Source: Membranipora membranacea (lineage: Eukaryota > Bryozoa > Gymnolaemata > Cheilostomatida > Membraniporidae). From it: 64,000 nucleotides of DNA. Location of the stretch: assembly GCA_914767715.1 (NCBI GenBank), contig OU612075.1, positions 8,930,001 to 8,994,000 of the forward strand, given 5' to 3'. The stretch's first letter is position 1; each line of letters starts with the position of its first letter. The notes beneath the pieces were generated by a model. The model was given only the letters and a program-made list of their open reading frames with translations, searched no databases and was not told the DNA's origin. Both the position numbers and the translations under genes were made by a program. This document shows positions 43,001 to 64,000 of this stretch, in pieces.

Positions 43001-46000
43001 CTCCTTGCAAAATCAAAACCTCATTATAAAATATCAAAACATCTAAAATAGTAGAAATACAATAACGATGGTATCCATTTCTAATGTGTTGCCAAATTCT
43101 TTCAGATAATAATCTTCAGCTATCAGGACAAAAACTTTGAAAGGATCATTCGAATTTTGAAGAGGTTAGAGCCCGAACCAACAAAGTTCAAGGCCAAAAT
43201 ATTCACACATTTTGTCATCACAACATATGATCATGGAGTAAGGATATATCCTTATTCTGTGATATGATATTTTAGGATGGTTTTCCGATAATAGCCTGAA
43301 CAATTTATGACTCATAATAGCAATGGTATTTCACTGACTTTGATAATGAGCAATAAGCATGCACTCATAAAAGGGCTTCACATCAGACATTGCGATACTC
43401 TGCGGTGTTATTAACTTTAAATGTGAATCAAATACCATCTACTCAACTTTACTCAAATAGTGGAGCTCTAATCAAGTAAGCAGAGACCTCAGCCTATCAA
43501 GTGGCCTTTTCAAAACTATGAAAGTAATACCTACTTATTCATCTAGGGTTCTTCTATAACCAGCTATCGCAGAACCTCAAAAACAATATTTAGAGCAATT
43601 TCGCTTGGCCTGTTTTCAGTTAGAAAAATTTATGTTGGACTGAATCGGTTCAGTTGGACCAAGGAGTTAGAACTACACGTTAGTCTAACTCCTTGGTTGG
43701 ACTAAATCGGTTCAGTTGGACTGTATCGATTCAGTTGGATTCATGGATATATATTATGAATTCATATCGATGGTTGAACTGAATTGGTTTTCATCATTTG
43801 GACGCATCAGCGTCTTGGTCTTGTACGCAGAGCTTGATCAAACGATAACAAAAATCCACGCTGTTTCGACACAATCAAAAGCTCCCCTCAAGGCTACATG
43901 TAACGCTTGTTGATACCTTGTAATCATCTTTAATTGTCAGATAATGGCATTCCATTATCTCAGATAATCTCTCTAAACATCTGCGGAAGGTTGTTTGACA
44001 ACAATCTCAATTCCCTACAGCTTTTTATCCGATCTCTGCAAACTCTAAGTCATGCTCCTACATAGAGATTGACTGCTTCAGGGTTTAGTCTAGACAAAAT
44101 ATCGGCAAATTACAGAGATTCCATAAGCATTATGTTAATTTTAATAACTTGAGAGAAATATGAATACATCTGAGTGCGGTATTTGCTGTGGGCCTTTCAG
44201 GAAAACCAGTGTCATTTCCTTAAAACTCATCAATCTGCAATTTTAAAACTTGCATTGATGCTTCAGTTTAATTTTTCATACCAAAGAGTCCCTACTTCTT
44301 ATGGCCCGTAATATTTCTAGAGGTTCAAATTCAAGCAGTTTCCTGATTAGAGTTTCACAAAGACTTTTGTCGAAAAACCAACTAGAGCTAACTGAAACAC
44401 AGACTAGATGCTCAAATTTATGAATGAACTTAAGATATCTCACTATGATGCTAATAACAAGACTCAAAACAAACACCTAAGCTATTGTTTTAGTGAAATG
44501 ACTATGTTTTGATAAACCTGGAGGGTGCGGCTTAGTTGTAAAGACAAATTTAAAATGAAATCCTAGACAAAAATGCACTGAGAAAGCAAAGATATTGATT
44601 TAATCAGACAATTTGATAGCTTCTAGCAAGAAAAGTCAGGGTACCACTACACAAGAATAATCGGAGGCACTTAGCCAGTTTAGCACACAGGCCTGTCATA
44701 AAAATAAGCACCTTGCAGTAAATGACAAACAAGTTTTGTACCGCTTGACATTTACAAACATGTAATCAACAACGATTTACCACTTATTACAGGTCATTAG
44801 ATGGAATATTACCACTTGATGTTTACAAACATCATCCCTAACCATCAAAGAATGCAAGAATGAAGTGATGTCCTAATACAAATCTACACTAATAATTTAT
44901 GCGAATAATTGGCCATATCGCCAGGCGCAAATTTTGAACAGCGCATCCATTAATATACATAAGTGATCGCATCCCCTTTATTTGACTCTAGATAAGGGTC
45001 TGAAATCCTCTTGTTGACTGAATAATTTTCGCACCAACAAAGTGGCCTGTGTAGTATAGTAGCAAAGATACTAAATTCTGTCATTGGCTGTAGTAAGATA
45101 AATTTGCATGTTTAGATCGGCTGGCTAGCCATACCATAACACATAACACCCTTTGTAGCTGGTGCTAATCATAAAGTGATAATCCTGTACTAAACAATTA
45201 TTAGCTTATTATGTCAACAAAAGGATTATGGTGAGCATTGTAATTGACAAAGAGTCTCGATACCCTGGTTACACAACCTATTGTGAGATTAGCCGAAGGT
45301 GTAAAACTGAGTTGGACACTGAGTGTTTAGTATCTTTACCATGATGAGAGGCCTATGATGGATTGATAATAACCAAGCAACAGTCTGCCATGGATGTCAG
45401 GCTCATGACAGACTCCCGGTCCCCCCCCCCCCCCCCCCCCGCTTCATATTTGGTACACCTAGACCAAGTTTGGTCAATTTGCCTGCATTCAGAGTTACTT
45501 CCGATCTAATGGTCATACGTGACCAGTGGAAGGGAGCAACTGGAATGCAGGATATAGGATTAAACTTGATCTGTGCGCCCCCAGCAACGTGTTTGGCACA
45601 CGACTTGGTCTTACCAGCAGTTACGTGGACGATTTTGTTGTAGTCCAGCTTGAGGACTTTAATCTGTGCGTTTCTTATGTAAGGCGACGGCAAGCCAGCA
45701 ATTCTACAATCAACAAAAAAACAGACAATGCAAATCATTTGCATACTGTTTGTTGGGGGTCCTTGCCCATTTTGCCCATTACCACAACAAAGAAAAATAA
45801 CTTTTGTTGTTCAAAGTCAAATAATTTATGAATAACAATCCTTTTTTCTTTGATGTAATCATCATTGATTTTTCGTGTCATGTCAACTGCAAGCGTCAGA
45901 AAAGGCCGCCATCAATTCATATCATGGCGATTCCGTTTGTTATGCATAGACATGGATTGGATTGATCAATCCTCTGCCATACAACGTAGGGCTACTGTTA

Positions 46001-48614
46001 CACAGGGCTGTTAGCTGACATGCTTAACAAATCGCTAAGCAAACATAGCTCTTATGTTAAGACAAGAAGCTCTCATATTCACAAACTATGCCACATTTGG
46101 AAATCAGATAAAAACTGAGATAAATACTTGTAAATTAAACACTACTAGGCCTTTAACAACACTATTACCAAGAGTCTATCGCAATTTTACAAGCATCGAA
46201 ATCAAATTAATCAAGCTTGTAATACTATATCACCAACTTCACACTCGTGTCATGGATATTGCTAACAAAATTGCTTCTTGTGGAAGATATACAAGTTTGA
46301 CAGAGAGGAAATTTAACAACATTACAAAATCGAACAGGCTTGGGGTTTCTTTAGGCACCGAAGGTCATCGCCTGAGGTGACAATGAAAAGTCCTCTACAG
46401 TAGTTTGCCCTTAATATTAGACACTGTGACAATGGATAACAATTTGATTGAGTGATCAGGAGTCTTTGTCGCCCTGACAAAGAGATTGCTATCAGCTAAA
46501 CGGAAAAGAAGTTGCCACTATTTAACAAAGATTTTACAAGTGAACCCCCTGCTATCAAATCATTAGGACCAAAATTGAAGAAGTTTGTACGGAAATCCTT
46601 GAGGCTTAATATCTGGGAATAATCTTGGTCTAGGCAAGACAGTTAATGTAGTTGAAGAAACTCATTCATAAGAATTGGCTTCAACTAAATGTCAAGCGAT
46701 TGAGTCACTGTAGTTACATAAGAAGCAGATGGAGTTGATTGCAATCGCAATAATTTGAGCTTGTTATCGGTGAAATTCACTGGAGACATTTAATGGCAAG
46801 AGGAAACGGAATTCTAAACTTATTGTCGGAAATGATGCAGGCCTAATGTTTGTGTTGACCTTCTTGACACTGACCTGTTACGCTGAAGATCGAGAGTCTC
46901 TAGAGTTCTGATGTCAGCAAATACATCCGGCCTGAACGACTCCTCGGTCAAATAGTTATGAGACACATTCAACATCTGCATAATTAAAATAAATATATTA
47001 ATAACGCGACCATATTAATGCTATGTTACCTTATGTTGTACTCATGGTACATGGAGTTGTAACAAGTGTTTGATCTCAGTGCATCGGGAAATAGGTGTAG
47101 GCAGTAGACTACATTTGAGCGTGTGACCGGTGCCTAAAGGTGACCTGGGTGATCAGTCGAGATCACAATTTTGTGTTGATGGTCAAACATACAGCTCCCC
47201 TACCCGAGAGAGGAAAGTATTAGCTGGAGTTTGTTTGAGCTAGTTTTGGGGTGATATTATTTTAGCTAGCGGCAATTTCCATAGGGGAAGGCGGGGTACG
47301 TTGAGCCAGTTTTTACATATTTGATTGTAACATGCAGTTGAATTGTGCCAGATTAACAAAAATTGGCACTGAAATTGGTCTTCATGTCTTCCATCAACAT
47401 GAGTGAGGTCAGAAACCTATTGCAACAAGAAAAGGAAATATTGTTGTTTAAAAAAAAAATCTGGAAGCGGCTCAACGTGCCCCAAGCACGGGGCACGTTG
47501 AGCCGGGTCCGAATTTTGTATGGGGCACGTTGAGCCACTATGTTACGGCTATCTCTTTGCTGGTCATAACTTTTTAATTCATTGCAACCATAAGAAATAA
47601 AGAAAAACAACCTAATTCATTGCAACAGCGCATTTTTTTCACTCAATTGAGCTATAAAATATAGCTCGCTACACAAAATAAATCTCTGAAACATTTTCGG
47701 TATAGGAAAACTTGCATATGGCAAACTTGATGATAAGTGATGGAAAATTGAACTCAGAGTAATTGCTAATTTCATTAAAGATACATCAATTCCAATGTTT
47801 TTGTTTTTGCGTACATATACTTCATCTACACTTTCATCATATAACATTCATATACTCCAGGGCATGGCTCAACGTGCCCCAACGGGCATGGCTCAACGTG
47901 CCCCAACAGCCTGTTTTTCACTTTCAATTCGAGTTAAACAAAATCTCTCCATCAGAGATAAGTTTAGATTATGTGAAATTGAGACTAAATATGATGTTAT
48001 CACATAATAAAAGTTACAACTTCTCAGCCACGCCTTGTTGGGAATAGATGATATTTCTGTCGATTAGCGCATTACTTACTTTTTGCGCTAAAACCGATGA
48101 AAAACTAAATAATTATCTTCCCTTAGTAGCTATCTTTACTCTTGTCTGCTCAAAAAGGGTGCCTTTGGGCACATGGCCTCTGATGGAGGGGAAAACTCAA
48201 AACATAAAATGGTATCAACGTGCCCCATGGCTCAACGTGCCCCGCCTTCCCCTATGCCAAGATCAAGTTTCAAGGTTGAGTAATCGTAAGTTAGCCGTAT
48301 ATTTCAATTTTTCAAGGCTGATCAAACTTTTCCTCCTTCTTTTTAAAGTTCATCATAGGATTAGTGCTAACCTTTAAGTTGAAGAATCTGCTGAGCATAT
48401 CGCTGTATGTAATGTTTGATAATCTGTTGCTACCCAGTAGAAGTTCAGTGGTCAGGTCTGACACGTCGCTGGGTATGGAGGAGAGCTGCTGCCTATAACA
48501 GTCTGCTGTTAGCACCCCACCATCCTGACGAGACGAACATCCATTCACTGAGCCAATCAAATGGACAACCATCACACACAGAATAATGATGTGCGAGTTC
48601 GTTCTTGCTGCCAT
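36586..48614 (-). CDS. LRR and Ig domain single-pass membrane protein
   Basis: A cell-surface receptor or adhesion molecule of the LRR-Ig type, seen in many families such as Kekkon, LINGO and AMIGO. Exons: 48372-48614, 46875-46975, 45615-45703, 42344-42433, 42036-42180, 41085-41266, 40467-40677, 38312-38501, 37719-37865 and 36586-37029. They join in phase to 1842 nt (613 residues). Order: signal peptide (about 1-25), N-terminal Cys cap, about five LRRs (LETLDLQRN, LKRLDLSHNYLETL), a C-terminal cap (FWVCDCHLRWL), one Ig domain at about 275-355 (ISC, EWLQ, DYGLYKC), a valine-rich TM at about 378-400, and a 210-residue cytoplasmic tail. The tail repeats tyrosine motifs (NHSPAYIEP, NSIYIPP, NHSPDYIPT). 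Family is clear from domain order; the orthologue is not. Confidence 0.9.
39287..39833 (+). CDS. Small secreted peptide, nested antisense gene (putative)
   Basis: Two exons, 39287-39413 and 39817 onward, lie in the LRR-Ig intron between 38501 and 40467 but on the opposite strand. The ATG is at 39299. It encodes a classic signal peptide (MNLIKIVAGMFVAMAMIMGG) and then a short mature part: CDGGNEMPA, five prolines, and a tail. The donor (GCAG/GTAAGC) and acceptor (TTTTTACAG) are good. Splicing finishes the protein as AGDGGN followed by TAA, 43 residues in all. AATAAA at 39965-39970 could end the transcript. An unspliced reading would give 59 residues. The family is unknown; one Cys and a proline run suggest a secreted peptide, not a folded domain. 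The acceptor at 39286 before the ATG implies an upstream 5'UTR exon that I did not find. Confidence 0.5.
39965..39970 (+). terminator. Poly(A) signal of the nested peptide gene
   Basis: AATAAA lies 132 bp past the stop codon of the nested peptide frame on the same strand. Confidence 0.4.
43660..43695. mobile_element. 36-bp CAAGGAGTTAG palindrome with 7-bp duplication
   Basis: A minimal element: CAAGGAGTTAGA, a 12-nt centre, and TCTAACTCCTTG. It is flanked by GTTGGAC at 43653-43659 and 43696-43702. It sits inside a run of GGTTCAGTTGGACT repeats in an LRR-Ig intron. Confidence 0.7.
45421..45440. repeat. Poly-C tract (others at 2.63, 20.43, 26.9, 30.5 and 49.88 kb)
   Basis: A 20-base run of C in an LRR-Ig intron. 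Six such tracts of about 9-20 bases occur on the plus strand in the window, which is high for A+T-rich DNA. Confidence 0.85.
47284..48252. mobile_element. 969-bp element with CACGTTGAGCC inverted ends
   Basis: The ends are GGGGAAGGCGGGG(T/C)ACGTTG and its complement, flanked by TA on both sides. Inside, GGGGCACGTTGAGCC or its complement recurs at least five more times, including a palindrome at 47470-47507. No transposase is present. It is in the first intron of the LRR-Ig gene. Confidence 0.7.
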
Positions 48615-50830
48615 TGCAACTGACCTGTTGCGAGTACTTTATCCCTGTACGCTGAAGATCAGCTCGGTCTACTGAAAGCACATTTTGTGTTGTGTTAAAC
48701 AAGTAACAATAATATATTATATATATATGCATATTATATGAGGCATGCTGGGAGCAGGGAGAATGGAAGTAGTGGGAGAGAAAGAGTGAATTTTTTCTCT
48801 CATTCAAATAAAGTGCAAACCCTTGCATTCCAAGGTTCGGGTGACATGCAATAATCCTGCAGTCCTAAAAGAGGTAAACCACCGAAAAATACACTAGCAA
48901 TAGTCAAATTTTGTTTGTGAAACTGAAACTAACAATTAAAAAATCAGTAAGTTAGTTTACACTTAGACTAGAGAAAAGAAGAAGTCACTACCAAGTACCA
49001 ACCGAAAGAAAATAAATGTTGATCTACTAGCAGTACCTGACTTACAATTTCCTGCATCAGATAAAGGTACAGATGTAGTTAACAATTGTTGGGTGCAGAA
49101 AAGTTGTTGTATACTCAGTCTGTCTGTCCCCTTCTAGTTCCTACTCCTTGCTTGATCATGAAATAAAAGTCACAAGTGTTTGTCTCTTCAGTATGCTCAC
49201 TACTTACTATAGAATGGCAAGTCCAAAACAATAAATTGAATGTGTTTACATGTGCTTGTTAGACCAAGATGATAGTCTGCCTAAGGTACAGTAATATGCC
49301 TTAAAACCTTGGATGTCTTAAGGGAGTTTAATATTTCCACCAATCATAAGGGCACAGCATCTCTAATTGCTCATTGGCCTATACAATCCACATTAGCCAA
49401 TCATGTTGTTACATTTAGCTATAATTTTAAATACAGAATAGAGCGTCTCTTCACCTCCATTCCATAGATATAATTAGCAGCAGACAATAATCCTTCCTTA
49501 TTTATCATTTGAATATTAGCATCCATCTAGTCACAGTTGTACTCCGAAACCTGGGTCTGTCCCCACAAGGAGGGCAGTCAAACATTGCCAGAGACCCTCG
49601 TTCGTCATAAACATTGGAAAAGTTTACATGCTTGTAAGTAACCCTCTCACATAGACGAAGTGAAGTGATAGACGTATCAAAAAAAATCTTCAGGCAATAC
49701 CATCATTTCAGCAAAGGCGTCATCAACAACTTCATCCAAACAGTCAACATTTCATCAGCTAGGAGACATGCGGAGCAGTGCTTCATCCCTATGTCAACCA
49801 CCCTCCACTACTAGAGATCCGGTTTTCATACATACTGCCAAGGACTGCCATGCTCTACCCACTGGAACCCACTTCTTGTCCCCCCCCCCCCCGCGTGTAT
49901 AGCCCTGAAAAGCTGTTCAATTATCCAAATCGTTGCGGACCGGAAACAAATGACATTAATGACATACAAGAAAACAAGTTTCTCAAGTCACAGCAGACGC
50001 TGGCGCTGGAAACTAGACTCTTCAAGGTACGAATCAAGGTAATGATGCCTATGTCTTTAGCCCCTCTAGTCACACCAAGGAGTCTCTAACTGCATATAAT
50101 AATATATTACTTCAAAGTTCAGTTTTCAAGCAATGGTTTTGGTTTTGCCTAGCCTGTCTTGATAGCTTTATTCGAACAAGCGTGTCAAGACAGGCTAGGC
50201 TTTGTTAAACTATACATATTTAGGGTTATACTTTCATTAGCCATAGTGAGGCAACTCCAAAGTATATTGTCTGCTGTCTGTAATTTTTTTTTTTATTCGT
50301 GATTCAGATTGTTTGCTGTTTTAGACCTCACGGAATGAAAAGTAGAAACACGTCCTAAATAAATGGACCTATTATGGGTTAGAGCTGAAAGTTCAACAGT
50401 AGTTGGCGGCTTAGAGTGAATAACTTTTGCTGAACCATCTTCTTCTATATTTTGTGTAAGTTATTCTTTCTGATCGTGTTTCTATTTGGTGGATTGTCCC
50501 AGTGAATCACCTTCTTCTACCAGCCTGCATATTCCTTATCTTTCATTCAGTCATTTATCAAATTGGCACTTTGATTATTATTATCCTTATTCAGACACTT
50601 CGGTACAATAAAGATGATATCTTGAAAACATTGCCATTTGAAATGATAAAGTAAGCCAAATAAAATATTAATAAACAAAAGAAATGGTCAAGGGTAGCCT
50701 GTCTTGACAAGCCTTGTTCGGGGGTGGGCGGGTGGGTGGGGGGAACTTCAAAGCTTGCTAGTTTTATTACTATTTTTTTCTGTTCTGATCTTCTCAATGT
50801 TAAAATTCCTATGACATCATGAATCCTCAT
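48615..50830. other. Intergenic region between LRR-Ig and hairpin-RNA loci
   Basis: The LRR-Ig gene and the hairpin-exon transcript point away from each other here, so both promoters should lie in this interval. I see no supported gene. It holds a TA run near 48715-48730, a poly-C run at about 49879-49890, and a palindrome at about 50145-50207 whose arms are GCCTAGCCTGTCTTGA and its complement. Confidence 0.45.
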
Positions 50831-53173
50831 GAAGCCATAATCAAAAAATTCTCAAATCAGTTGGGCACCAGTGGGCAAACTGGACAGACTTCTTTGTTAA
50901 GAGAGGTAAGTGGTTGAACCAGTGTCTTCAATGTATGCTGTTACATTGCTTCAAGCTGATTTACTTACATATCCCTCGTACATTATTGGAGAATGTAACA
51001 TCTGATCTGATTCAATTCTGATGATCGGTTTTTGGTTCCATCCCTGGTTTGATAAATTTTGATGTTTTGTTGATTGTATTATCTTTAATTTCACATGATG
51101 ATAAGTGTCAGAATAATCTTAGCTTATATCTCTGAATTTTTTTGCAGGGATTAAAGGTGTGAAAGGTGCTCAACATTGGTAAATCTAAGGTTTCAAAACC
51201 TATACAAACTGAGTAAGACACAGTTCTTTCAACATAACCTCAACAGGTAGGTATCCTTAGCTTTTTGATATTGTCAGTGTTAGGTGTACAAGTGTACTTA
51301 TAAAAAAAATATTAATACATTTGTCAGCAAAATGATACTATAATGTAGGCAGCCGACTTCTGCTTTTTATTGTTACAAATGCTACTGCTCTGCGTTAAAC
51401 CTCAGTGTCGTCGTAATCTTTTGACACATGCCTCTGTTGTTACGTGATGTAAAATACACTGTTTCAAGACTTTATCATTGTCAAAATAATTCTTTCACAG
51501 GCTGCTGTGCTGCTCCGGACAATTAAGATGAAGAGGGTTTCTGAAGGCTGAATAATTTGCCATTGGATCGGTAACACTCATTCAACCATTTGGTCAATTA
51601 CATAGAGCAATACCTCCTATCACTACATCATGGTTCCATATGGTAAGTTTATGCATGGTATCATTTTTCCAAGAAAACTGTTAGAAAATAAGTTAATTGT
51701 TTAATCCATAGACTATGGTCTAATCATTCAAATTGGGTTAAGAGTTATCACCACATGCATCACGACTGATAAGGTATGTTACATTCCTTGAATTTCAAAT
51801 ACAATTAAATTTCTGAAGCCATACTGAGGGAGAGAAATTAGCTTATACTGATGATATTCTAAGCTCTGATATGCTGCTGGTCCCTAAATAGTAGTGAGTT
51901 TGATTGCAGACCCATCATTGACTCAACTATGTCTACCATTTTTTTCTTGTATGAATCGGTGACTCAATGTTATTTAGCAGCTGAGGCCTGATGCTATGTT
52001 TAATCTAATAATTTTATTCATTGATAGGCTTTATTCAATCTTATGCATTCTCTTTCGATCACAAGTTTTGAGGAGCTCCTTGAGCAGCATAATTTTTATG
52101 CCAAATGTACAATGTTATTTTTCTCTCATTTTACTTGGCCGCTGTTTGCAGGTGCTGATTGTACCAATACTGGTCTACCTACACCAACAACACTGAGACT
52201 ACAAGGCTTTACAAGACAACACAGATCAACCTGAACACACAGAGGGAGGCCCACAGTGCTGGATTGATGAGATCAGCCAGGCCTCCCTCTATGAACTTGT
52301 GAGTAACTATCAAATCATTGGAGATCATTCGGTGTTCACCTTAGCAATTAAAGCTCCTTACTTACATTGATACTTTCTCTGAAACTTGTCTGGTGGTACA
52401 TTTTACCAATTCAGTAACTCATAATTGATAGTCAAAAGAAATTAAAATAAACAATGGTTTAAAATATGGGTTAAATTGCATATCTTGCTGTAATTTGTTG
52501 TTTTTGATAGATAAGCCATAGGGACTGAGTTTTCTTACCAGGGGCAATCCGATTTCGGCATCGTCTGTTTTGTTGTATTTTTACATCCTCACATGAATTT
52601 ATTTATATTGACAGGGCCTCACTCATCACAGAGAACTGTAATACTCAGAGTCAGAGGGAGGCTGCTATTTCCAGATACACAACAAGACAGATAAACCTGA
52701 ACACACAGAGGGAGGCCCACAGTGCTGGAGTAATGAGATCAGCCAGGCCTCCCTCTATGAGCTTGTGAGTAACTATTTAATCATAAGAGATCATTCAGTG
52801 TTCACCTTGGCAATAAAACCCTCTTGCTTATACTGATACTACTCTCTAAAACTGGCGCTGCAGGTAACAATTCAAACACAGTAGCCCCAAATTGGTACTA
52901 CTCACAAATAATGAAATTCAAATAACAGTGTCAATGATTATGCAGCCGTTTGAGCAACTCTGGATGACTTTCATCCCTGATTTATCGTTTTTTCATTCAA
53001 CTTGAGTGTCTAAAGTCTGCTAAAGAGTATAGGTAAGTTTTGAAAAGGGAAACAATCCGTATCTACAGTTTATTCAATAACATACCTGATGTGTCATTTT
53101 ATTATTCTTGTTACAGGCCACACATTTGCTAGTATAACTGGTTGCTGGGAAAGTGGTAGATGAATTTGTGACA

Positions 53174-55493
53174 GGGAGGCCGTCTACCGTCAGTTAGGCC
53201 TCCCAGATCTCAATGGGGATGACTTTGTTGGTAAGTTTGACAACAAAAAATAGTACTTGACAATAATTATACCAGCATGATGCAGCCTGGCTTTTGACAA
53301 AATCACATTTTGTTGTATGGCACGTTCAATTATTTGTTCAGTATAAGCAAGGAGAAAAACCCTTGGCATAAGTCGTGCATTTACCAATTTTCCAAGTGTG
53401 CAATGTTTTATTTGTCTCATTTTCTACTGGCTCATATTACTTGGCTGCTGTTTGCAGGTGCAGATTTTACCTATGTAGTATAGCAGCACAACACCGGTCA
53501 ACTCCAACAACACTGAGACTACAAGGCTTTACAAGACAACACAGATCAACCTGAACACTGAGAGGGAGGCCCACAGCGCTGGATTGATGAGATCAGCCAG
53601 GCCTCCCTGTATGAACCTGTGAGTAACTATCAAATCATTGGAGATCATTCGGTGTTCACCTTCACCTTAGCAATAAAAGCTCCATACTTATATTGATACT
53701 TTCTCTGAAACTTGCCTGGAGGTACAGTTTACCAATTCAGTAACTCATAATTGATAGTCAAAAGAAATTAAAATAAACAATGGTTTAAAATGTGGGCTAA
53801 ATTGCGTATCTTGCTGTAATTTGTTGTATTTTTCTATAGATAAGCCAAGGGACTGAGTTTTCTTACCAGGGGCAATCCGATTTCGGCATCGTCTGTTTTG
53901 TTGTATTTTTACATCCTCACATGAATTTATTTATATTGACAGGGTCTCACTCATCACAGAGAACTGTAATGCTCAGAGGGAGGCTGCTATTTCCAGATAC
54001 ACAACAAGACAGTTAAACCTGAACACAGAGAGGGAGGCCAACAGTGCTGGAGTAATGAGATAAGCCAGGCCTCCCTCTATGAACTTGTGAGTAACTCTTA
54101 AATCATTTAGAGATCATTCAGTGTTCACCATTTCAATAAAACCTTCTTACTTACATTGATGCCGCTCTCTGAAACTGGCCTGGCATTGGTGATAACAATT
54201 CAAAAACAGTAGCCTGAATTGATAGTCACAAAGGATGAAATAACGCTGGATGTGTTTCATCCCTGAATTGTCCTTTGTAGGTAAGCTTTGATAGGGGAAG
54301 CAATTCCTATCAACAGTTTATTCAATAACATACCTGACGTGTCAATTATTATTCTAATTACAGGGCACACATTTGACAATAAAACTGGTTGCTAGGAAAG
54401 TAGAAGATGAATTTGTGATAGAGAGGCCGTCTACCGTCAGTTAGGCCTCCCAGATCATAACGTGGATGATTTCATTGGTAAGTTTGACAATAAAAATAGT
54501 AATCAACAGCGGCAATAATTTTACCATCGATGCAGCCTGGTTTTTGACAAAATCACTTTCAATTATTTCAGTATGGGTGATAATCAGAATTGTTCATACT
54601 TTTATGAGTTTGCGATATGCTAAAGTACATACACGCCTCATCCCATTCCTAAACACAATCAAAAATGATGAAGCCCTTCTGCTCAACACAAACACTCTAC
54701 TAAACTCTACTAGGATAAAACTAAAAAATCGAGACAATATTATTGTGAGTTTACAGTTATTGCTCAAGTTCTGCAGAGGTTTTTCATTTGGGAACAGCTT
54801 CATGTAGGCTTGATATGATCCACTTCCCACTGCCTTCTTTTAATATACACATCATCATAGCATAGTGATGATTTGCTGACGCATCTAAAATTGCTGCATC
54901 AGTTTCTTTCCTCACATGACTTGATCTATATTTACAGCGCATTACTCAACATGGGAAACCACAGGGAAATACTCTACATGGGAAATACAATAGAAAACCT
55001 CTACAGAAACATGAGAATTACTCTACAAGGAGGCTGCATCATATAGATGACAGCACAAGTCCACCTAAACACAGAGAGGGAGGCCCACAGTGCTGGAGCA
55101 ATGAGAACAGCCAGGCCTCCCTCTACAAACTTGTGAGTGACTCTCAAATTTTTTAGAGCTCATATAATGTTCACCATTTAAATAAAACCTTACTACATTG
55201 ATGCTGCTCTTGCCTGGCATTGGTGATAACAATTCAAAAACAGTAGCCCAAATTGATAGTCGCAAAGATTGAAATAACGCTGGATGAATTGCTCATGTTT
55301 CTAAAGTCTGCTTAAAAGTATGGTAAGCTTTGAAAGGGGAAGCCATCTATATCTACAGTTTATTCAATAACATACCTGATGTGTCATTTATTAATCTTAT
55401 TACAGGGCACACATTTGACAATATAACTGGATGCTGGGAAAGTGGTAGATGAATTTGTGATAGGGAGGCCGTCTACGGTCAGTTAGGCCTCCC
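53174..55493 (+). repeat. Type B exon hairpins, 3 copies
   Basis: The stem is GGGAGGCC with GGCCTCCC around a 15-nt loop, GTCTACCGTCAGTTA. Arms: 53174-53181 with 53197-53204; 54421-54428 with 54444-54451 (one mismatch); 55463-55470 with 55486-55493. Each is in a 114-bp exon that ends GATGACTTTGTTG or close to it before GTAAGTTTGAC. Confidence 0.7.
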
Positions 55494-56073
55494 AGATCTC
55501 AATGGGGATGACTTTGTTGGTAAGTTTGACAACAAAAAATAGTATTTGACAATAATTTTACCAGCATGGATGCAGCCTGGTTTTTGACAAAATCACATTC
55601 TGTTGTATGGCACGTTCAATTATTTGTTCAGTATAAGCAAGGAGAAAAAACCCTTGGTATAAGTCTGGCATTTACCAATTTTGCGATTCAATAAAGAACA
55701 CGTTGCATTCCGTTCCTAAACACAATCAAAAACAATGAAGCCCTTCTGCTCAACACAAGTTCTACTAGCCTAAAACTAAAAAATTGGTTCGCCATGGAAG
55801 CATTGTGATGTATCTGCTGACGCATCTATAGTTACTGTATCGTTTTCCTTCCTCTCATATTTGCAGAGCCTCACTCAACATGGAAAACCACAAAACTCGA
55901 GAGGGAGGCTGCCTCATTTAGACGGTAGCACAGATAAACCTTAACACAGAGAGGGAGGCCCACAGTGCTGGAGCAACGAGATCAGCCAGGCCTCCCTCTA
56001 CGAACTGGTTAGTAAATGTTAGTCTGTAGATATTATTCAACGTGAACCATGATACAGAAAGCTCCCTTCATCT

Positions 56074-56096
56074 ATTCAAGGAGTTTCTTTGACTCC
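56074..56096. repeat. CAAGGAG mini-palindrome in hairpin-RNA intron (also 56464-56486)
   Basis: CAAGGAGTTTCTTTGACTCC then TTG occurs in two introns that are copies of each other. The flanks ATCTATT and ATCAATC or ATCTATC resemble a 7-bp duplication. The pair was duplicated with the 387-bp exon-intron unit. Confidence 0.5.
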
Positions 56097-56803
56097 TTGA
56101 TCAATCAATATCACTTTCTGAAGCTTGCACTGGCTGATTTCAATTCGCAAACAATCATTGTAACCCTTAATTGGTTTGCCATGAGAGCATTGTGATGTAT
56201 CTGCTGACACATCTATAGTTACTGTATCGTTTCCCTTCCTCTCATATTTGCAGAACCTCACTCAACATGGAAAACCACAAAACTCGAGAGGGAGGCTGCC
56301 TCATTTAGACGGTAGGGCAGATAAACCTTAACACAGAGAGGGAGGCCCACAGTGCTGGAGCAACGAGATCAGCCAGGCCTCCCTCTACGAACTGGTTAGT
56401 AAATGTTAGTCTGTAGATATTATTCAATGTGAACCATGATACAGAAAGCTCCCTTCATCTATTCAAGGAGTTCCTTTGACTCCTTGATCTATCAATATCA
56501 CTTTCTGAAACTTGCACTGGCTGATTTCAATTCGCAAACAATCATTGTAACCCTTAATCGACAGTTACAAAGAGTCATGGTGCCTATTTTGAGCGACACT
56601 CGATGGGTTCACATACTCGCCTTTTTCCTTTGCAATTAAAAGTAGCCCAAGGATAGCTTATAGCGTATATTTTTTCGTTAAAAAATGCTGACCTCATTTA
56701 GTTAGAAATAATATTACATTTGATGTATATTATTATTCACATTACAGGACACATAGTCATTTCCTGAGAGAGACACAGTATGATTGGGAGATAGATAATA
56801 TTA

Positions 56804-57475
56804 GGGAGGCATTATGGAAAACTACCGTCACGGCCAGGCCTCCCGAAGCATTTTGGAGCAACTTCTTTGGTAAGTTTTGAATGTTATAGTGCGAGTTTAT
56901 GATACTTTTCAGTTATTTCTTATACAGGATTGAAACTTGGTACTTACTTTGTACACATTGACTTACTGTTTTTCATACGCAGTCACCTTTTATCTCGAGA
57001 GTTGAGACAAAGATGTGTAATACAAAATAAGTTGCGATTATTCACCATTTGTCATCTACATGATGAAACTGAGGCACTCCATTCGATAGGCTTGGTTTAA
57101 TTCACATGCTGCGGCAGGCATTCATGGTACCATTTGATGTTAATTATGATCTATAACGATTGAAAACTTTCACCTCCATATGTAATAAAAATTACATGTG
57201 GTTTTATTTATATTCACAGTGACTCACTCATTTTGATGGCCCGCGACACGACTTGGAAAGTGGGAGATACATAATGGTAGGGAGCTGTTTGCCAGCCAGG
57301 ACTCCCGAGGCACTTACGGAAAAATTATTTCGGTAGGTAATACGAACAAAAATCCAGCCAATTTTTCTCACTCAATTAAAACTTGTTACATGGTTTCCTG
57401 CATTCCTTGCTGTCTTTCCTTGCTTTCCGTCAGCTTGGTTGGCACACACTGTATTCCTGGTTTGCCATTCACCTA

Positions 57476-57510
<35 letters not shown>

Positions 57511-58375
57511 ATATATATAACAAACATTAATAGAACAATGTTTTGATGAGTTAGTCAGTTAGTCATATGAATTATTGAATACTTCCATAGAAAGTGAAAT
57601 AATACTGATGTGTGAAGGATTACCATTTCCGGTACTCAATGAAGATTCTCCAATCCACTAAGCTTGATTAGCCATATTCCAGTAATCTTCATATGTACAT
57701 GACATGACATATGTACATCACACGGTTCCATTTGTTCTGTAAATAGTTATGTCACACACTTGATTTCATTAAACCTCCATTGATGACTTTTTACTCATAT
57801 TTACAGCGACTCACTCATTCGCTGTGAGCAATCGCACGTGGACTGGGAAAGCAGGTAAACAGATAATGGTAGGGAGGCACTCTGAGCAACTACCAGTCAG
57901 ACACAGACAGGCCTCCTGAACCATCTTTCGACATCTTCAAAGGTAGGTTTGATGACAGCGGGTGATTTATCAAATATTAAACTTCCTTTCCATACAGTTG
58001 TTTCAAAAAGCTTTTAACTTGGTACTTGCTTTCCTGCCTCCATTGCTTCTTTTCCATGCTTTCCTGCAACTTGGCACACACTGCTTATCTGGAATTCTGC
58101 ACAATTGCCTTACATTAATACTGATTAGTTGCTCATGATTTATGAAAATGTCAGTAAAGTTGTAAAGTAACGTGGATGTATGATAGTTTAACCTTTATTA
58201 GTATCGGGATGAATTCTTGGTAGCTTGCCCTTGTGGTTATAATTTACCACATTACTAATCATAGTCGATGTTTATAAATTGTTTTTGATCACACAGGCCA
58301 GACAAGCAGTGAAAACATGGAGACAAAATACAAGTAGGAAGGCAACCTGAGACTCCACTATCAGCCAGGCCTTCC
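56804..58375 (+). repeat. Diverged exon hairpins, 4 copies
   Basis: Four downstream exons share little outside the stem. Arms: 56804-56810 with 56838-56844; GGGAG at 57280-57284 with CTCCC at 57302-57306; 57872-57878 with 57911-57917 (one G-T wobble); and GGAAGGC at 58337-58343 with GCCTTCC at 58369-58375. In the last, both arms changed together, which keeps the pairing. Several share an upstream GATAATGGTA-like stretch before the stem. Confidence 0.65.
57476..57524. repeat. (TA)n microsatellite; others at 18.36, 23.03 and 23.28 kb
   Basis: Alternating TA is nearly uninterrupted for about 45 bp. Comparable tracts lie at about 18356-18420, 23030-23075 and 23280-23350, all in introns. Confidence 0.85.
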
Positions 58376-59210
58376 GAATCACCTTTGGGCAGCTTAGTTG
58401 GTAGGTTTTGACAGCTTTTTTTTATAAGATTATAACTTGGTGCCTGATTTTTATGTTGCGTCAATGGAATTCCGCACTTTCCATTATCTAAATAATTAAA
58501 AAAGCATTATGTTTTTGTGATAATTAAATGATACAAAAATTATCAAGTCCTGGAAATTCGTGAAAATCTTTGTAAGTATATAATAATTGAAAACTTTCAC
58601 CTCAATAAATGTCTTTATTCGTATTTACAGGGACTTTTCTTCAACAACACAAAGATCGAAGAGTCGCCTGTCCTTTTTTGAGATTGAGAAACCGACTGGA
58701 GAACTTGCTGCCGACTGGTTCTTTACATACGACATCAACCAGACAACATTAATATCTTCATTGCGTTAATTGGCAGATGATCTTGTTGGTTAGAGTTCAA
58801 CTTCAGTCGCTGTGAAGAACGACCGTTCGAAATAGAAAAAAGACTCCATCAATGACCATAGAGCAATGTAAAGAGATGCGGATAACGTGGTAATTAAGTG
58901 TAAGTCTTCGCACAGTATTCTATTCTCTAGTACCTGTATATAATTAATAATCTTATTCACACTTCTTTAGGACTGATCCTCCGTGTTATATAGGGTTGGC
59001 TGCGCTAGACACATAAGGGTTGTTTGTATTTGATAAAACTGATCTCTAGGAGCCATGAAATTGACCTGTAAGTTGCCCTCTAAGAAATCAAAGACCGTGG
59101 CAAGAGGTTAACCTAAATATACACTATGTGTAGAAATTTAGCGCATTTATCAAATTGAATATTGCGCATGCTTAAAATCACTTGCTTGTTACTTAGAAAA
59201 TCATTTCCAA

Positions 59211-62200
59211 GTGTACAGGTGTATGTTGTCGATCTATTAATGGTTTCAAGCTGCCACTGAAAACCTGTTGTTATAGTATTTCTTATTGGTTTAGAACTGT
59301 GTGCCAGTCGCTTGTTTTAAATTCCTTGATTTTAACTTTTGCGCATTTGCGATTCCATTAACTAATTACGAATAATCATAAATATCTTTAATGCCTAATC
59401 AATAAGCAAGTCAGCAGTTTTATGGCATTGACACAGCATTCCATTGTAGTTACAGCTTTCTTGATTTTTGAAGCAGTCACTGTCATAGAGTTATCCTCCC
59501 TTTTGACACACCAGAATAGTTAATTGAGGTATGCGGGTGGCTTCAGTTCGTATTGTTGACTGACTGTCCTAACTACTAGTTTACTAACCAGGTCCACCTT
59601 GCTGTTAATGCTGTTGTCACTCTGTCGGATGAGCTTGATATTCTGTTATGACTATATGAGATGCTCTTGTGTATTTCCTCTTATGTAGATAGGGATATTC
59701 TTGTCTCAGTTGCTGCGCATTATCTCATCATCCCTTAGAAAATCTTCTATTCTGTCTCGCTGCCGTTTTCTAGATGTACCGGTGTATGTTGACGAGCTAG
59801 GAGGGTTTCAGCTGCCACTGAAAACCTGTGCTTAGTATTTATTTGCTGGTTTAGGATGGTTTACCAGTCGCTCGTTTTAAATTTCGTGGTTTTAACTTTT
59901 GCGTATGATTCCATATGACTTATTAAGAATAATATGACATGAAATACTTCAACTGTATGCCATATAGAGATATTGGCTGCCGTTTTCTAGATGTACCGGT
60001 GTATGTTGACGATCTATTAGGGTTTCAGCTGCCACTGAAACCTGTTGTTAGTGTTTCTTTGTTGGTTTAGGACGGCTTGCCAGTCGCTTGTTTTAAATAC
60101 TTTGATTTTAACTTTTTAAGTTTTTCGCATGATTCCGTATGACTTATTATGAATAATATGACATGAATTACTTTGAGAGTATGCGGTAGAGCCCCTAGCC
60201 ATTGACATATCTCTCTATATATTGGTGGGTCTATCCCTTCGATCTTTAATCTATTGATTCTGCTGTAAATAGAAAAAAAATCTGTGATTTGTCTCACATA
60301 AAAACTATTACTCCAGCGCCTATTATTAGCACTCTTAGTCAATCACTCACCAAAATTCGATATCAGTAAGCAGAAACTGCACAATCTTGCATCAGGATGC
60401 ATCTTGGTGTAATTTTTTAGACATTTCTTACAAATTGCCATCTTAATCAATTTTACTATTATGGTTTAAATTGGTACAAGACTATAATCCAAACTACCTC
60501 ACCGTAGAATAAAGTTACTGTGGTAAAGCATAGAGTGATGACTCTGGTTGATACTTACCGAATACTTTTTCCAAGTCAGCATCATATTTTCTTGTTTTGT
60601 ATGCCATTTTTAGTGTTGAAGATAATTTGTGATAAGTGTTGATAAGTGTAGTAAAGTAATGTAGCAGTAGAGTAAGTAGCAGCTGATTGTAATAGAGTAA
60701 GTAGAATAAACCTGTGAGTAGGTAGAGTTTGTAGGTTAATCCGTAGTAGAGCACTGAGGGCCAAATTGTTGAAAGCCGCTGTCAATGCTTTGAATGAGCT
60801 TGATATTCGGTAATGGTTATATGAGATACTCTTGTGTAATCCATATTTTCATGTAGATAGAGGCGCTTTTCGTCAGCTCATCATTACTTAGAAAATCTTC
60901 TATTCTATCTTGCTGCCGTTTTCTAGATGTACCGGTGTATGTTGACGATCTACGTGGGTTTCAGCTGCCACTGAAAACCAGTTGATAGTATTTCTTTGTT
61001 GATTTAGGACGGTTTGCCAGTCGTTTGTTTTAAATTTTGTGATTTTAACTTGTTTTTAACTTTTGCCCATGATTCCGTATAACTTATTAGGAATAATATG
61101 ACATGAAATACTTTGACTGTATGTATGCCATAGAGCCCCTACCCATTGACATATCTCTCTATATTGGCTACCGTTTTCTAGATGTACCGGTGTATGTTGA
61201 CGATCTATGAGGGTTTCAACTGCCACTGAAAACCTGTTGTTAGTATTCTTTGTCGATTCCTTTATTTTAACTATTTAACTTTTGCTCATGATTCCGTATA
61301 ACTTATAAAGAATAATATGACATGAAATACTTTTACTGTATGCCATAGAGCCCCTACCCATTGATATATCTCTCTATATTGGCTACCGTTTTCTAGATGT
61401 ACCGGTGTATGTTGACGATCTATGAGGGTTTCAACTGCCACTGAAAACCTGTTGTTAGCATTATCTGTGTTGGTATAGGACGGTTTGCCGGTTGCTTGTT
61501 TTTTTATCTTGTATTTTAATTTTGCTCATGATTCCATATGACTTATTAAGAATGATATGACATGAAATACTTCGATTGTATGCCATAGAGCCCCGACCCA
61601 TTGACATATCTGTCTATATTGGCTGCCGTTTTCTAGATGTGCCGGTGTATGTTGACGATCTTTTTATGTGGGTTTCAGCTGCCACTGAAAATCTGTTAGT
61701 ATCTCTGTGTTGGTATAGGACGGTTGCTGGGCGCTTGTTTCAAATTCCCTGATTTTATCTTGTTTTCAACTTTGCTCATGATTCCGTATAACTTATTAAG
61801 AATAATATGACATGAAATACTTTGACTATATGCCATAGAGCCCCTACCCATTGACATATCTCTCTATATTGGCTGCCGTTTTCTAGATGTACCGGTGTAT
61901 GTTGACGATCTATGAGGGTTTCAACTGCCACTGAAACCTGTTGTCAGTGTGTATTCTATGGTTTAGGACGGTTTGCCATCGCTTGTTTTAAACTCCTCAT
62001 GATTTTAAGTTTTGCGCTGATTCTATATGACTTAATAAGAATAATATTCATATAAATAATTTAATGACTGAATCCACAAGTGTTATCAAACCTACCAAAG
62101 ATTTGTCCGAAAATGCTTTAGGAGACCCATTTGATTCTCTTCTCTGCACCTACATAATGGGTAACATGGTCTATTGATACCTACTTAGGCCTGAGTCAGT

Positions 62201-63640
62201 AACCAGTGTTCTAGATGGCTGCTGTTTTGTTCTGGTGTCATGTATAGTTATTTTGTTCAGTATAAGAATAGCTCAGCTAATTACTTAGGGATAGTTGAGG
62301 TAGCAACTAGACTCCTCTCTATATAAGCATCAGATATCATCGGAAAACATCCCATGATCGCAGATTTTTGAGTGAGGCACTGCTTAGCACTGGACATAGG
62401 CATCCCATGTTAACCCCAAGTGGGTTTGACTAGCATGAGGCGCCTAGTTTCAGTATCCTGTGCCACTGGTTGTGACTGAGGCTTCATGTCGGCATGGATC
62501 CTCAGTCACAGCCGCAAAAGTTTGAGTGATGTACAGTCTTAGCGCTTTATAGCATCCTGTACAACTGGTCATGGCCGAGGTTAGAAGGTGATGTCTAATG
62601 CCTTTATTCCATATCTAGATGTAATGGTGTAGGCTGACGATCTAGGAGGGTTTCAGCTGTCGCTGAAAACCTGTTTTCAGTATGTATTCTATGGTTTAGG
62701 ACGGTTTGCCAGTCGCTTGTCTTAAATTTCATGATTTTAACTTTTTAACTTATGCACATGATTCCATATGACTTATTAAGAATAATATGAAATGAAATAA
62801 TTCAACTGTATGCCATAGAGAGATATTGGCTGTCGTATTCTAGATGTACCGGTGTATGTTGACGAGCTGTCGGAGGGTTTCATGTGCCACTGAAAACCTG
62901 TTGTTATAGTAGTTCTCATTGGTTTAGGACGGCTTGCCAGTCACTTGTTTTAAATTTTGTGGATTTAACTTCTTTAAACTTTTGCGTATGATTCCAAATG
63001 ACCCATTAAGAATAATATGACATGAAATACTTCAACTGTATGCCATAGAGAGATATTGGCTGTTGTATTCTAGATGTACCGGTGTATGTTGACGAGCTGT
63101 CGGAGGGTTTCATGTGCCACTGAAAACCTGTTGTTATAGTAGTTCTCATTGGTTTAGGACGGTTTGCCAGTCGCTTGTTTTAAATTTTGTGGATTTAACT
63201 TCTTTAAACTTTTGCGTATGATTCCAAATGACCCATTAAGAATAATATGACATGAAATACTTCAACTGTATGCCATAGAGAGATATTGGCTGCCGTATTC
63301 TAGATGTACCGGTGTATGTTGACGATCTATGAGGGTTTCAGTTGCCACTGAAAACCTGTTGATAGTATTACTTTGTTGGTATAGGACGGTTTGCCGGTCG
63401 CTTGTTTTAAATTCATTGACTTTAACGCTCGCTCATGATTCCGTAGAACTTATTAAGAATAGTAAGATATGAAATACTTTGACTGTACGCTTTATTACTT
63501 AAAAATCTTCTGTTTGGTCTCGCTGCCGTTTTCTAGATATACCGGTGTATGTTGTCGAGTTAGTATCTATTCTATGGTTTAGGATTGTTTGCCAGTCGCT
63601 TGATTTAAATCCCTTGATTATAGCTTTTGATCATGATTCA
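59211..63640. repeat. Degenerate tandem array, 13 cores, mostly 215-255 bp spacing
   Basis: Core TAGATGTACCGGTGTATGTT starts near 59211 (diverged), 59771, 59988, 60924, 61179, 61394, 61634, 61884, 62616, 62841, 63071, 63301 and 63534. Each unit then has GGGTTTCAG, a CTGCCA loop and CTGAAAACC (a potential hairpin), GGACGGTTTGCCAGTCGCTTG-like sequence and a run ending CATTGACATATCTCTCTATA. Two insertions break the array, at about 60060-60900 and 62040-62600. Copies are too diverged for a young satellite. Confidence 0.85.
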
Positions 63641-64000
63641 ATAATAATATAACCAGGGAGAATAGAATGGAGAATTCTCCCTGATATAACAAACTGAAAT
63701 AATATAAGAAATACTTGGACTGTATTCTGTAGGTATTTTGATGGGTCTCTCCTAATTTTTTCTCTGTTACTTGTCTACAGAACTCTCCATCAATAGGTAG
63801 AAGGAGTCACTTGTATATTGAAATCCAGAAGTCAGCTGCTGGTAATTTAATAACTGAATGCTCAAGTGTCGTCAAACCTACCAAAGATTAGTCCAAAAAT
63901 GCTTCAGGAGACCTGGCTGTAATTTGATTGGTTACATGCGAGTGTTGTTATATACCAAATATTTCCATATCAGTAGGCAGTTCGTTAATATCATAGGTAA

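Follow-up and report, generated by a model that had tools for sequence, protein, structure and literature searches.

The window, a 64,000-nt stretch of the Membranipora membranacea assembly (GCA_914767715.1, contig OU612075.1, positions 8,930,001–8,994,000), contains an array of 14 hairpin-bearing exons at 52152–58400, preceded by exons E1–E3 and followed by E18 and E19 (Table 1). The AG acceptors and GT donors of these 14 exons lie where the original prediction, which counted about 18 exons with good splice sites, had placed them. These splice signals, together with a promoter-like block upstream, predict a spliced RNA. Within the block, CATGAAG and TCAGTTG are taken to be TATA-like and initiator-like elements, and the TATA-like position is of the TATAAA type in some loci. 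A GTAAGT downstream of E19 suggests further exons.

Table 1. Predicted features of the window locus (window coordinates)
Feature	Position	Strand	Remarks
Promoter-like block	50743..50858	+	aligned in 13 loci (window included); further matches across the genome
TGACATCA	50812-50819	+	within promoter-like block
CATGAAG	50828	+	degenerate TATA-like, in promoter-like block
TCAGTTG	50857-50863	+	initiator-like
E1	50859..50905	+	donor GTAAGT; from alignment and donor; start from initiator-like site
E2	51148..51246	+	no hairpin; splice signals
E3	51501..51642	+	no hairpin; 7 genomic matches, own copy counted
E4	52152..52298	+	type A1; hairpin 52244-52287
E5	52615..52764	+	type A2; hairpin 52710-52753; second GGGAGGC, unpaired, at 52656
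E6	53117..53230	+	type B1; hairpin 53174-53204
E7	53458..53618	+	A1 copy; hairpin 53564-53607
E8	53943..54086	+	A2 copy; hairpin 54032-54075; second GGGAGGC, unpaired, at 53978
E9	54364..54477	+	B1 copy; hairpin 54421-54451; left arm GAGAGGC, single A-C mismatch
E10	54938..55132	+	A3-like by small margin; hairpin 55078-55121
E11	55406..55519	+	B1 copy; hairpin 55463-55493
E12	55867..56007	+	type A3; hairpin 55953-55996; second GGGAGGC, unpaired, at 55903
E13	56254..56394	+	A3 copy; hairpin 56340-56383; second GGGAGGC, unpaired, at 56290
E14	56748..56869	+	type B2; hairpin 56804-56844
E15	57220..57332	+	type C1; shortened hairpin 57280-57306; GGGAG/CTCCC, 5 contiguous pairs, 6/7 aligned positions paired
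E16	57807..57942	+	type C2; hairpin 57872-57917; right arm GCCTCCT, one G-U pair
E17	58297..58400	+	type C4; hairpin 58337-58375; compensated A-U (GGAAGGC/GCCTTCC)
E18	58631..58899	+	no hairpin; end set by GTAAGT donor at 58900
E19	58971..59067	+	in block 77-88% identical in 14/15 fetched loci, not found in L016

Hairpins of the window exons

The hairpin exons are ~104–195 nt long, and their GC-rich stems of 7–11 pairs enclose variable loops of mostly 13–38 nt. Ten exact matches to GGGAGGC-N(5-35)-GCCTCCC occur in the window, all inside the array, compared with none in 100 shuffles; the other four hairpins are mismatched (E9), shortened (E15), G-U paired (E16) or compensated to A-U (E17). The expectation of exactly one GGGAGGC/GCCTCCC stem per exon holds for the hairpin, present once in all 14 exons (10 exact, 4 variant), but not for the motif, which recurs unpaired in E5, E8, E12, and E13. 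Stems lie ~11 or 24–27 nt before the donor, donors having been sought only near such offsets (accepted: 10–12 (A) and 23–27 (B)). In five comparisons of old copies among E6 and E14–E17 (with the arms of E15 and E17 placed up to two bases off), arms were 79–100% identical, against 46–63% for the exon remainder and 47–57% for introns, in agreement with the earlier view that the hairpin is retained while introns diverge. E12 and E13 are 96–97% identical, introns included.

A multigene family with conserved hairpin arms

The window gene belongs to a multigene family in the 339-Mb genome. Hairpin exons are kept in 14 of 15 fetched related loci, the remaining one (L019) being degenerate, and exon order is broadly collinear in most. 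A more divergent locus, L031, carries 12 hairpins, most with different loops; its pair count is biased upward because these hairpins were found by pairing, and its donors occupy the expected place in 9 of the 12 (search open over 45 nt). The predicted layout of a spliced gene with a stem-loop kept in each exon is strengthened by this family. Genome-wide, the exact hairpin pattern was matched 45 + 41 times, against 0 + 0 for the reversed pattern used as control; these correspond to 56 distinct sites, 48 of them inside fetched loci. Hairpin exons were not found within the 6.5–6.6 kb fetched at three further promoter-block loci, nor was a copy of a 21-base exon piece found in the viral contigs searched. 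L018 and L019 appear to be decaying.

A sequence-only profile of the right half of the exon recovered 108 exons in the window and 15 loci, with 7 pairs in 67, 6 in 18, 5 in 12, and 4 or fewer in 11. Removal of all 6 exons of L019 and of 7 with low arm-and-flank scores left 95 exons (all 7 pairs in 67, six in 16, fewer in 12). The full stem is thus missing in 28/95 kept exons and in 41/108 overall, and pair-breaking arm changes are common. At least one of the 108 (L021 3858) is a one-base mis-anchoring. Spacing, identity, stop, and folding counts used 94 exons, one of the 95 having no donor; an alignment of the kept exons comprised 92 of the 95, with three window exons left out.

Across 384 orthologous exon pairs, identities were.887/.897 for the arms and.893 for the donor (5' splice site), against.69–.75 for the exon remainder and.56–.64 for introns; donor conservation and spacing are partly built in, because the profile spanned the right arm and donor and donors were sought near expected offsets. 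Between loci, the remaining exon diverges more than twice as much as the arms, and intron sequence decays fast past the splice sites. With the score filter lifted, giving 453 pairs from 106 exons, the corresponding values were.849/.887 for the arms,.657 for the loop, and.699/.744 for the sides. A check independent of this profile selection used 59 exons of the other loci that were detected from the left half only: 47 have a complete 7-pair partner no more than 55 nt away (4/59 when that stretch is shuffled), and 57 have a donor-like site.

Mean folding z was −2.25 for 94 hairpin windows vs 0.03 for 94 intron controls. In the full-length fold (E1 taken from 50858, modelled E18 end one base short), just 8 of the 14 window hairpins were local with probability ≥0.7, because arms from different exons can cross-pair. 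Of the envisaged mature RNA as a string of 14 stem-loops, the stem-loop in each exon stands, but the fold retains only these eight as local.

Covariation of the hairpin is weak: clear compensatory changes number two or three, and substitutions that preserve pairing through G-U are modestly in excess. For the 7-pair stem alone, 46/500 shuffles reached the covariation score, two pairs changed on both sides (1–4 in slid controls, above the stem in 5/6 slides), and RNAalifold called no pair. For the extended structure, 2/500 shuffles reached the covariation score and 0/500 the paired cells; the 7 of its pairs with changes on both sides were equalled by one slid control, and its 10 both-side-changed cells were matched or exceeded by 3/6 under the same measure. 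Pair-keeping C>T changes in the right arm (28/460) outnumbered pair-breaking G>A changes in the left arm (15/460), with flank rates of 53/512 and 62/516, respectively (Fisher p 0.049; 0.012 with L031 added). Counted as tree events, this bias was 26 to 16 and not significant (p 0.16).

A candidate modular RNA and its alternatives

Hairpin arms that change far less than the exon remainder point to an undescribed RNA of repeated stem-loop modules. The original prediction knew of no named RNA family with this layout, and Rfam likewise yielded no match in the window at gathering threshold; weak matches below it number two in 49–60 kb and one in 58.5–64 kb. On the sequence evidence, we give roughly even weight to the reading that this gene is one of a multi-copy set encoding spliced non-coding Pol II RNAs, whose many equivalent stems would act as a multivalent protein-binding platform. 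Each middle exon would be a module with one short GC-rich stem-loop near the 5' splice site. Arrays would have grown by duplication of single exons and three-exon units, followed by whole-gene duplication within and between chromosomes. The putative spliced RNA E1–E19 (~2.5 kb) would display up to 14 near-identical stems, together forming a platform most likely for a stem- or dsRNA-binding protein. More tentatively, these may be modular RNA genes of a new class, with the exon as the unit of RNA structure: such genes would grow longer by copying stem-loop exons, much as protein genes copy domain exons, and at least 15 genes would supply multivalent scaffolds of differing length in one animal. 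If so, exon duplication would be seen building RNA structure instead of protein domains, and the many gene copies, with ~3–14 modules each, would offer a natural series in which stem-loop number could be tested against non-coding RNA function.

The main rival, which we regard as unlikely, is splicing control, with the stems acting in the precursor instead of the mature RNA and, together with cross-pairing arms, deciding exon joining, skipping or circularisation. It accords with stems placed 11 or 24–27 nt before donors (sought near these offsets), in L031 also under the open 45-nt search, with arm conservation equal to that of the donor, and with cross-pairing between separate exons in the full-length fold. 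Plain descent could, however, explain the constant spacing, and introns decay quickly outside the splice sites. We consider it quite improbable that the stems are functionless, belonging to a segmental-duplication family that decays at different speeds while palindrome-directed repair or gene conversion keeps the inverted repeat. The near-identity of E12 and E13 through their introns, the largely degenerate locus, and the weak covariation fit such a history; yet palindrome repair equalises two arms and would not hold the same sequence across many loci, and divergence in the arms is below half of that in the exon remainder.

A small-RNA precursor, in line with the small-RNA processing suggested by the original prediction and with one small RNA released from each hairpin, is very unlikely, even with many near-identical hairpins on one predicted transcript. 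The usual microRNA precursor stem has ~22 or more pairs; 7–11 pairs around loops of mostly 13–38 nt are too short for ordinary microRNA precursors and lack the long precursor stem of a microRNA cluster, and no Rfam microRNA family matched at gathering threshold.

The possibility that the exons form a protein-coding family or its pseudogenes, having formerly encoded a repeat, receives slight credence. Its initial appeal was an open REAF/SQASRSI frame common to two exon types: in some loci, B2 and C1 read open through WEI..REAF..SQASRSI (for B2, in the window and in L009, L011, L012, and L013, but not L010). An open frame occurs in 36/94 exons against 29.8 expected (17/200 copies as high), and exon length is divisible by 3 in 43/94. 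The reading was nevertheless rejected: stops total 629 vs 632 expected by chance, length differences among loops and among exons do not preserve a frame, phase shifts from exon to exon, a search found no protein related to the 101-aa spliced frame, and Pfam gave nothing above cut-off. Stops in all three forward frames, noted in the original prediction for two fully tested exons, occur in 11 of the 14 hairpin exons of the window (one open frame each in E5, E10, and E14), and no frame is kept. Nor is the short E1 open frame (MNPHEA...) conserved, its ATG and frame being broken in other loci.

Last, a snoRNA host gene, with exons as by-products and the functional RNAs in introns, can practically be set aside: the layout resembles 116HG and 115HG, the SNORD116 and SNORD115 hosts, described in PMC7917289 as repeated non-coding exon arrays spliced into one RNA, but a simple C/D-box scan found no candidate in 18 window introns, Rfam matched no snoRNA in the window, and conservation lies in exon arms, not introns. 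The likeness thus extends to arrays of repeated non-coding exons, with splicing predicted in the window; those introns carry C/D snoRNAs, whereas here the conserved element is exonic.

Relation to other repeated structures

Repeated stem-loop RNAs of the roX type are known from two genes per fly species, and their roXbox motif, GTTNTACG, has 7 matches in the window, none between 50.8 and 59.1 kb and so none in hairpin exons. According to PMC4719309, roX1 and roX2 of Drosophila are long non-coding RNAs with a short motif repeated within stem-loops, more repeats giving better function. Sequence and folding indicate a comparable arrangement of repeated stem-loops in a putative long non-coding RNA here, but each exon has a single stem, the genes are numerous, and the sequence that recurs is another one. 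The Xist A-repeat consists of tandem copies of one structured motif that form a protein-binding platform; the present family would share this organisation, but the Xist copies are confined to a single exon of a single gene and here the repeats are separate exons across a gene family. Dscam-type arrays likewise combine tandem exon copies with complementary elements; those exons are protein-coding with intronic pairing elements, whereas here the exons are non-coding and the complementary elements exonic.

The hairpin exon array and its conservation

The predicted gene (exons E1–E19) contains an array of 14 hairpin exons bordered by E1–E3 on one side and E18 and E19 on the other. AG acceptor and GT donor signals flank 14/14 array exons, as the original prediction had it, although splicing itself is a prediction. 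The pattern GGGAGGC-N(5–35)-GCCTCCC matched 10 times in the window, always inside the array, and never in 100 shuffles. The four remaining hairpins are variants: E9 has one mismatch, E15 is shortened, E16 has one G-U pair, and E17 carries a compensated stem (GGAAGGC/GCCTTCC). The predicted stem is present in its exact form in ten exons and as a variant in the other four. The second, unpaired GGGAGGC in four A-type exons is possibly an alternative left arm. Array growth in the window appears to have proceeded by duplication, judging from a three-exon unit (E4–E6) recurring as E7–E9, a piece at E10–E11, and the pair E12/E13 (96–97% identical, introns included).

Coordinates of the features in and around the hairpin gene
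Feature	Position	Strand	Remarks
Hairpin exons E4–E17	52152–58400	+	14 exons; AG acceptors, GT donors
Extra unpaired GGGAGGC	52656, 53978, 55903, 56290		upstream part of four A-type exons
MITE-like inverted repeats	50147–50200; 50690–50712		
Second tandem array	59204–63643		3' of hairpin gene; units ~215–240 bp
Further hairpin	62468–62513		14 + 6 pairs, UCGG loop; z −4.1 for 62440–62540
Block holding this hairpin	62127–62608		70–85% identity in 10/15 fetched loci
Relics of B-type exon end and donor	62076–62127; 63867–63922	−	within second array
E18/E19 block, inverted copy (L024)	~66.07–66.24 kb (window numbering)		~7 kb downstream
Toll-like receptor-like open frames	3477–7875	+	leucine-rich-repeat/TIR-like
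Toll-like receptor-like open frames	45403–48638	−	leucine-rich-repeat/TIR-like; called by eye

Among 384 reciprocal-best exon pairs between loci (found with a profile extending over the right arm and donor, after removal of low-scoring rows), identity was.887 and.897 in the arms and.893 at donor positions 1–6. Elsewhere in the exon it was.754 (3' side),.708 (5' side),.691 (loop), and.695 (acceptor), and in introns.644 to.564 downstream and.614 upstream; unrelated 40-mers under the same alignment procedure gave.50. Because profile and filter could bias this set, we repeated the comparison with all 106 donor-bearing exons (arms.849 and.887, donor.891, loop.657, sides.699 and.744). As the original prediction had it for older copies, the arms are kept between loci while introns diverge. 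A search restricted to left half-exons located 59 sites outside the window. Of these, 47 can complete all seven pairs within the next 55 nt (4 after shuffling of that stretch), 56 can form at least six (39 after shuffling), and 57 have a donor-like site. Mean folding z was −2.25 in 94 hairpin windows vs 0.03 in 94 intron windows of equal length, and was weakest in locus L018 (−0.57).

A dispersed gene family

The window (C11:8930001–8994000) belongs to a 339-Mb genome of 18 contigs, in which E4 matches at least 39 places, one B exon at least 9, E3 at least 7, and the conserved E19 block at least 28; the promoter block before E1 has at least 49 matches, many merely a dispersed repeat of ~50 bases. 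Sequence-only profiles of the window's right half-exons detected 108 exons in the window and 15 fetched related loci. After filtering, hairpin exons number 14 in the window and 3–8 in each of 14/15 loci, the exception being the degenerate L019. Typed on sequence outside the arms, exons follow a broadly common order (A1 A2 B1 A3 B2 C1 C2, then C3 or C4). The fit is good in L009–L014, where some exons are absent and two rows (L012) deviate, and poorer in L015, L016, L021, L022, and L023, where score margins are small. Wherever found, the blocks upstream (promoter, E3) and downstream (E19) of the hairpin exons are arranged in one consistent order.

Genome-wide, AGGGAGGC-N(8–36)-GGCCTCCC matched 45 times forward and 41 times reverse, and the backward-read pattern 0 and 0 times. 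Merging both strand readings left 56 distinct sites, 48 of them inside fetched family loci. The other eight comprise two at C1:24.58M adjoining a promoter-block match, one at C4:2.03M adjoining an E19-block match, and five on C6. One C6 cluster, fetched as L031, holds 12 hairpins (search rule: at least 6/7 pairs; mean folding z −2.07), nine with a donor-like site 11–12 or 24–25 nt past the stem. Two fit the family model well (48.6 and 45.9 bits); the remainder, whose loops differ, score weakly (at most 24.3 bits) or go unmatched. The stem and its pre-donor position thus seem to outlast the loop sequence. By way of counter-example, three loci with the promoter block (L028–L030) showed no hairpin exons within the 6.5–6.6 kb fetched.

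Pairing, coding, and possible function

That the two conserved boxes are exact complements argues for pairing, but covariation of the stem is modest. Across 92 of 95 kept exons, the 7-pair stem had 94.1% paired cells vs 93.5% when shuffled (5/500 reached the observed value) and a covariation score of 0.097 vs 0.092 (46/500); two pairs changed on both sides, and most slid controls show more. Whole-arm shuffling gave 620.4 paired positions against 624/665 observed (92/5000). Adding inner pairs, picked by eye on the very alignment they were tested on, yielded 83.1% vs 81.8% paired cells (0/500), a score of 0.088 vs 0.077 (2/500), and seven pairs changed on both sides vs 3.8 (11/500; one slid control also had seven). 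RNAalifold predicted no pair. Compensation is clear in window E17 (G-C to A-U) and in L023 (G-C to U-A), and the E17 stem GGAAGGC/GCCTTCC recurs in L020 with a shift of one base. In the arms, C>T transitions, which leave G-U, outnumber pair-breaking G>A (28/460 and 15/460; Fisher p 0.049, or 0.012 with L031 added; 26 to 16 as tree events, p 0.16), and flank transitions are symmetric (53/512 and 62/516). This direction lends moderate support to folding of the sense RNA.

Coding was tested because some B2 and C1 exons have one open frame with a common motif. Stops in three frames of 94 exons numbered 629 vs 632 expected from Markov copies, 36/94 exons had an open frame vs 29.8 expected (17/200 copies as high), and loop lengths differ out of frame between exons. 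Lengths were divisible by three in 43/94 exons; the window count is 9/14, most of these having been copied recently from one another. Pfam gave no match above cut-off, and a search with the longest spliced frame, of 101 aa, found no related protein. We therefore reject protein-coding exons; stops in all three frames, asserted earlier from two exons, occur in 11/14 window exons.

A spliced RNA bearing many equal stems would offer repeated binding sites, and the array is probably best explained in this way by analogy with roX, whose function improves with more stem-loops according to an excerpt of PMC4719309. Stem-loop repetition is alike, but the roXbox was not found in the hairpin array, and membership in roX was rejected. 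The strongest rival is control of splicing by the stems, since each would sit directly before a donor. A snoRNA host gene was discarded, as a simple scan found no C/D snoRNA in the introns of the hairpin gene, and the stems are too short for ordinary microRNA precursors, which makes the suggested feeding of small-RNA processing unlikely. No named RNA family with this layout appeared among the open-access papers listed, in line with the original prediction.

Promoter-like block, predicted transcript, and neighbouring elements

An alignment of the promoter block from 13 loci, interpreted by eye, contains TGACATCA in 12/13, a box we take to be TATA-like (TATAAA in four loci, variants in others, CATGAAG in the window), and, ~31 bases beyond it, TCAGTTG in 12/13, followed by the donor. 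The block suggests, but does not prove, Pol II transcription. The predicted E1–E19 RNA measures ~2.5 kb; in its computed ensemble (modelled with E18 and E19 each lacking their last base), local formation has a probability of 0.7 or more for 8/14 hairpins, 0.49 for one, and 0.15 or below for five.

A ~50-base piece adjoining the promoter block has many dispersed genome matches. The Toll-like frames have leucine-rich repeats above cut-off and TIR just below, and mark the genome as that of an animal; 48312–48638 had no Pfam match. In the window locus BLAST divides the second tandem array into 14 pieces; the array recurs in 11/15 other loci, ten as a single piece and L013 as three. The stem of the hairpin at 62468–62513 is damaged in some loci. 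The inverted copy of the E18/E19 block is also present in 8/15 other loci.
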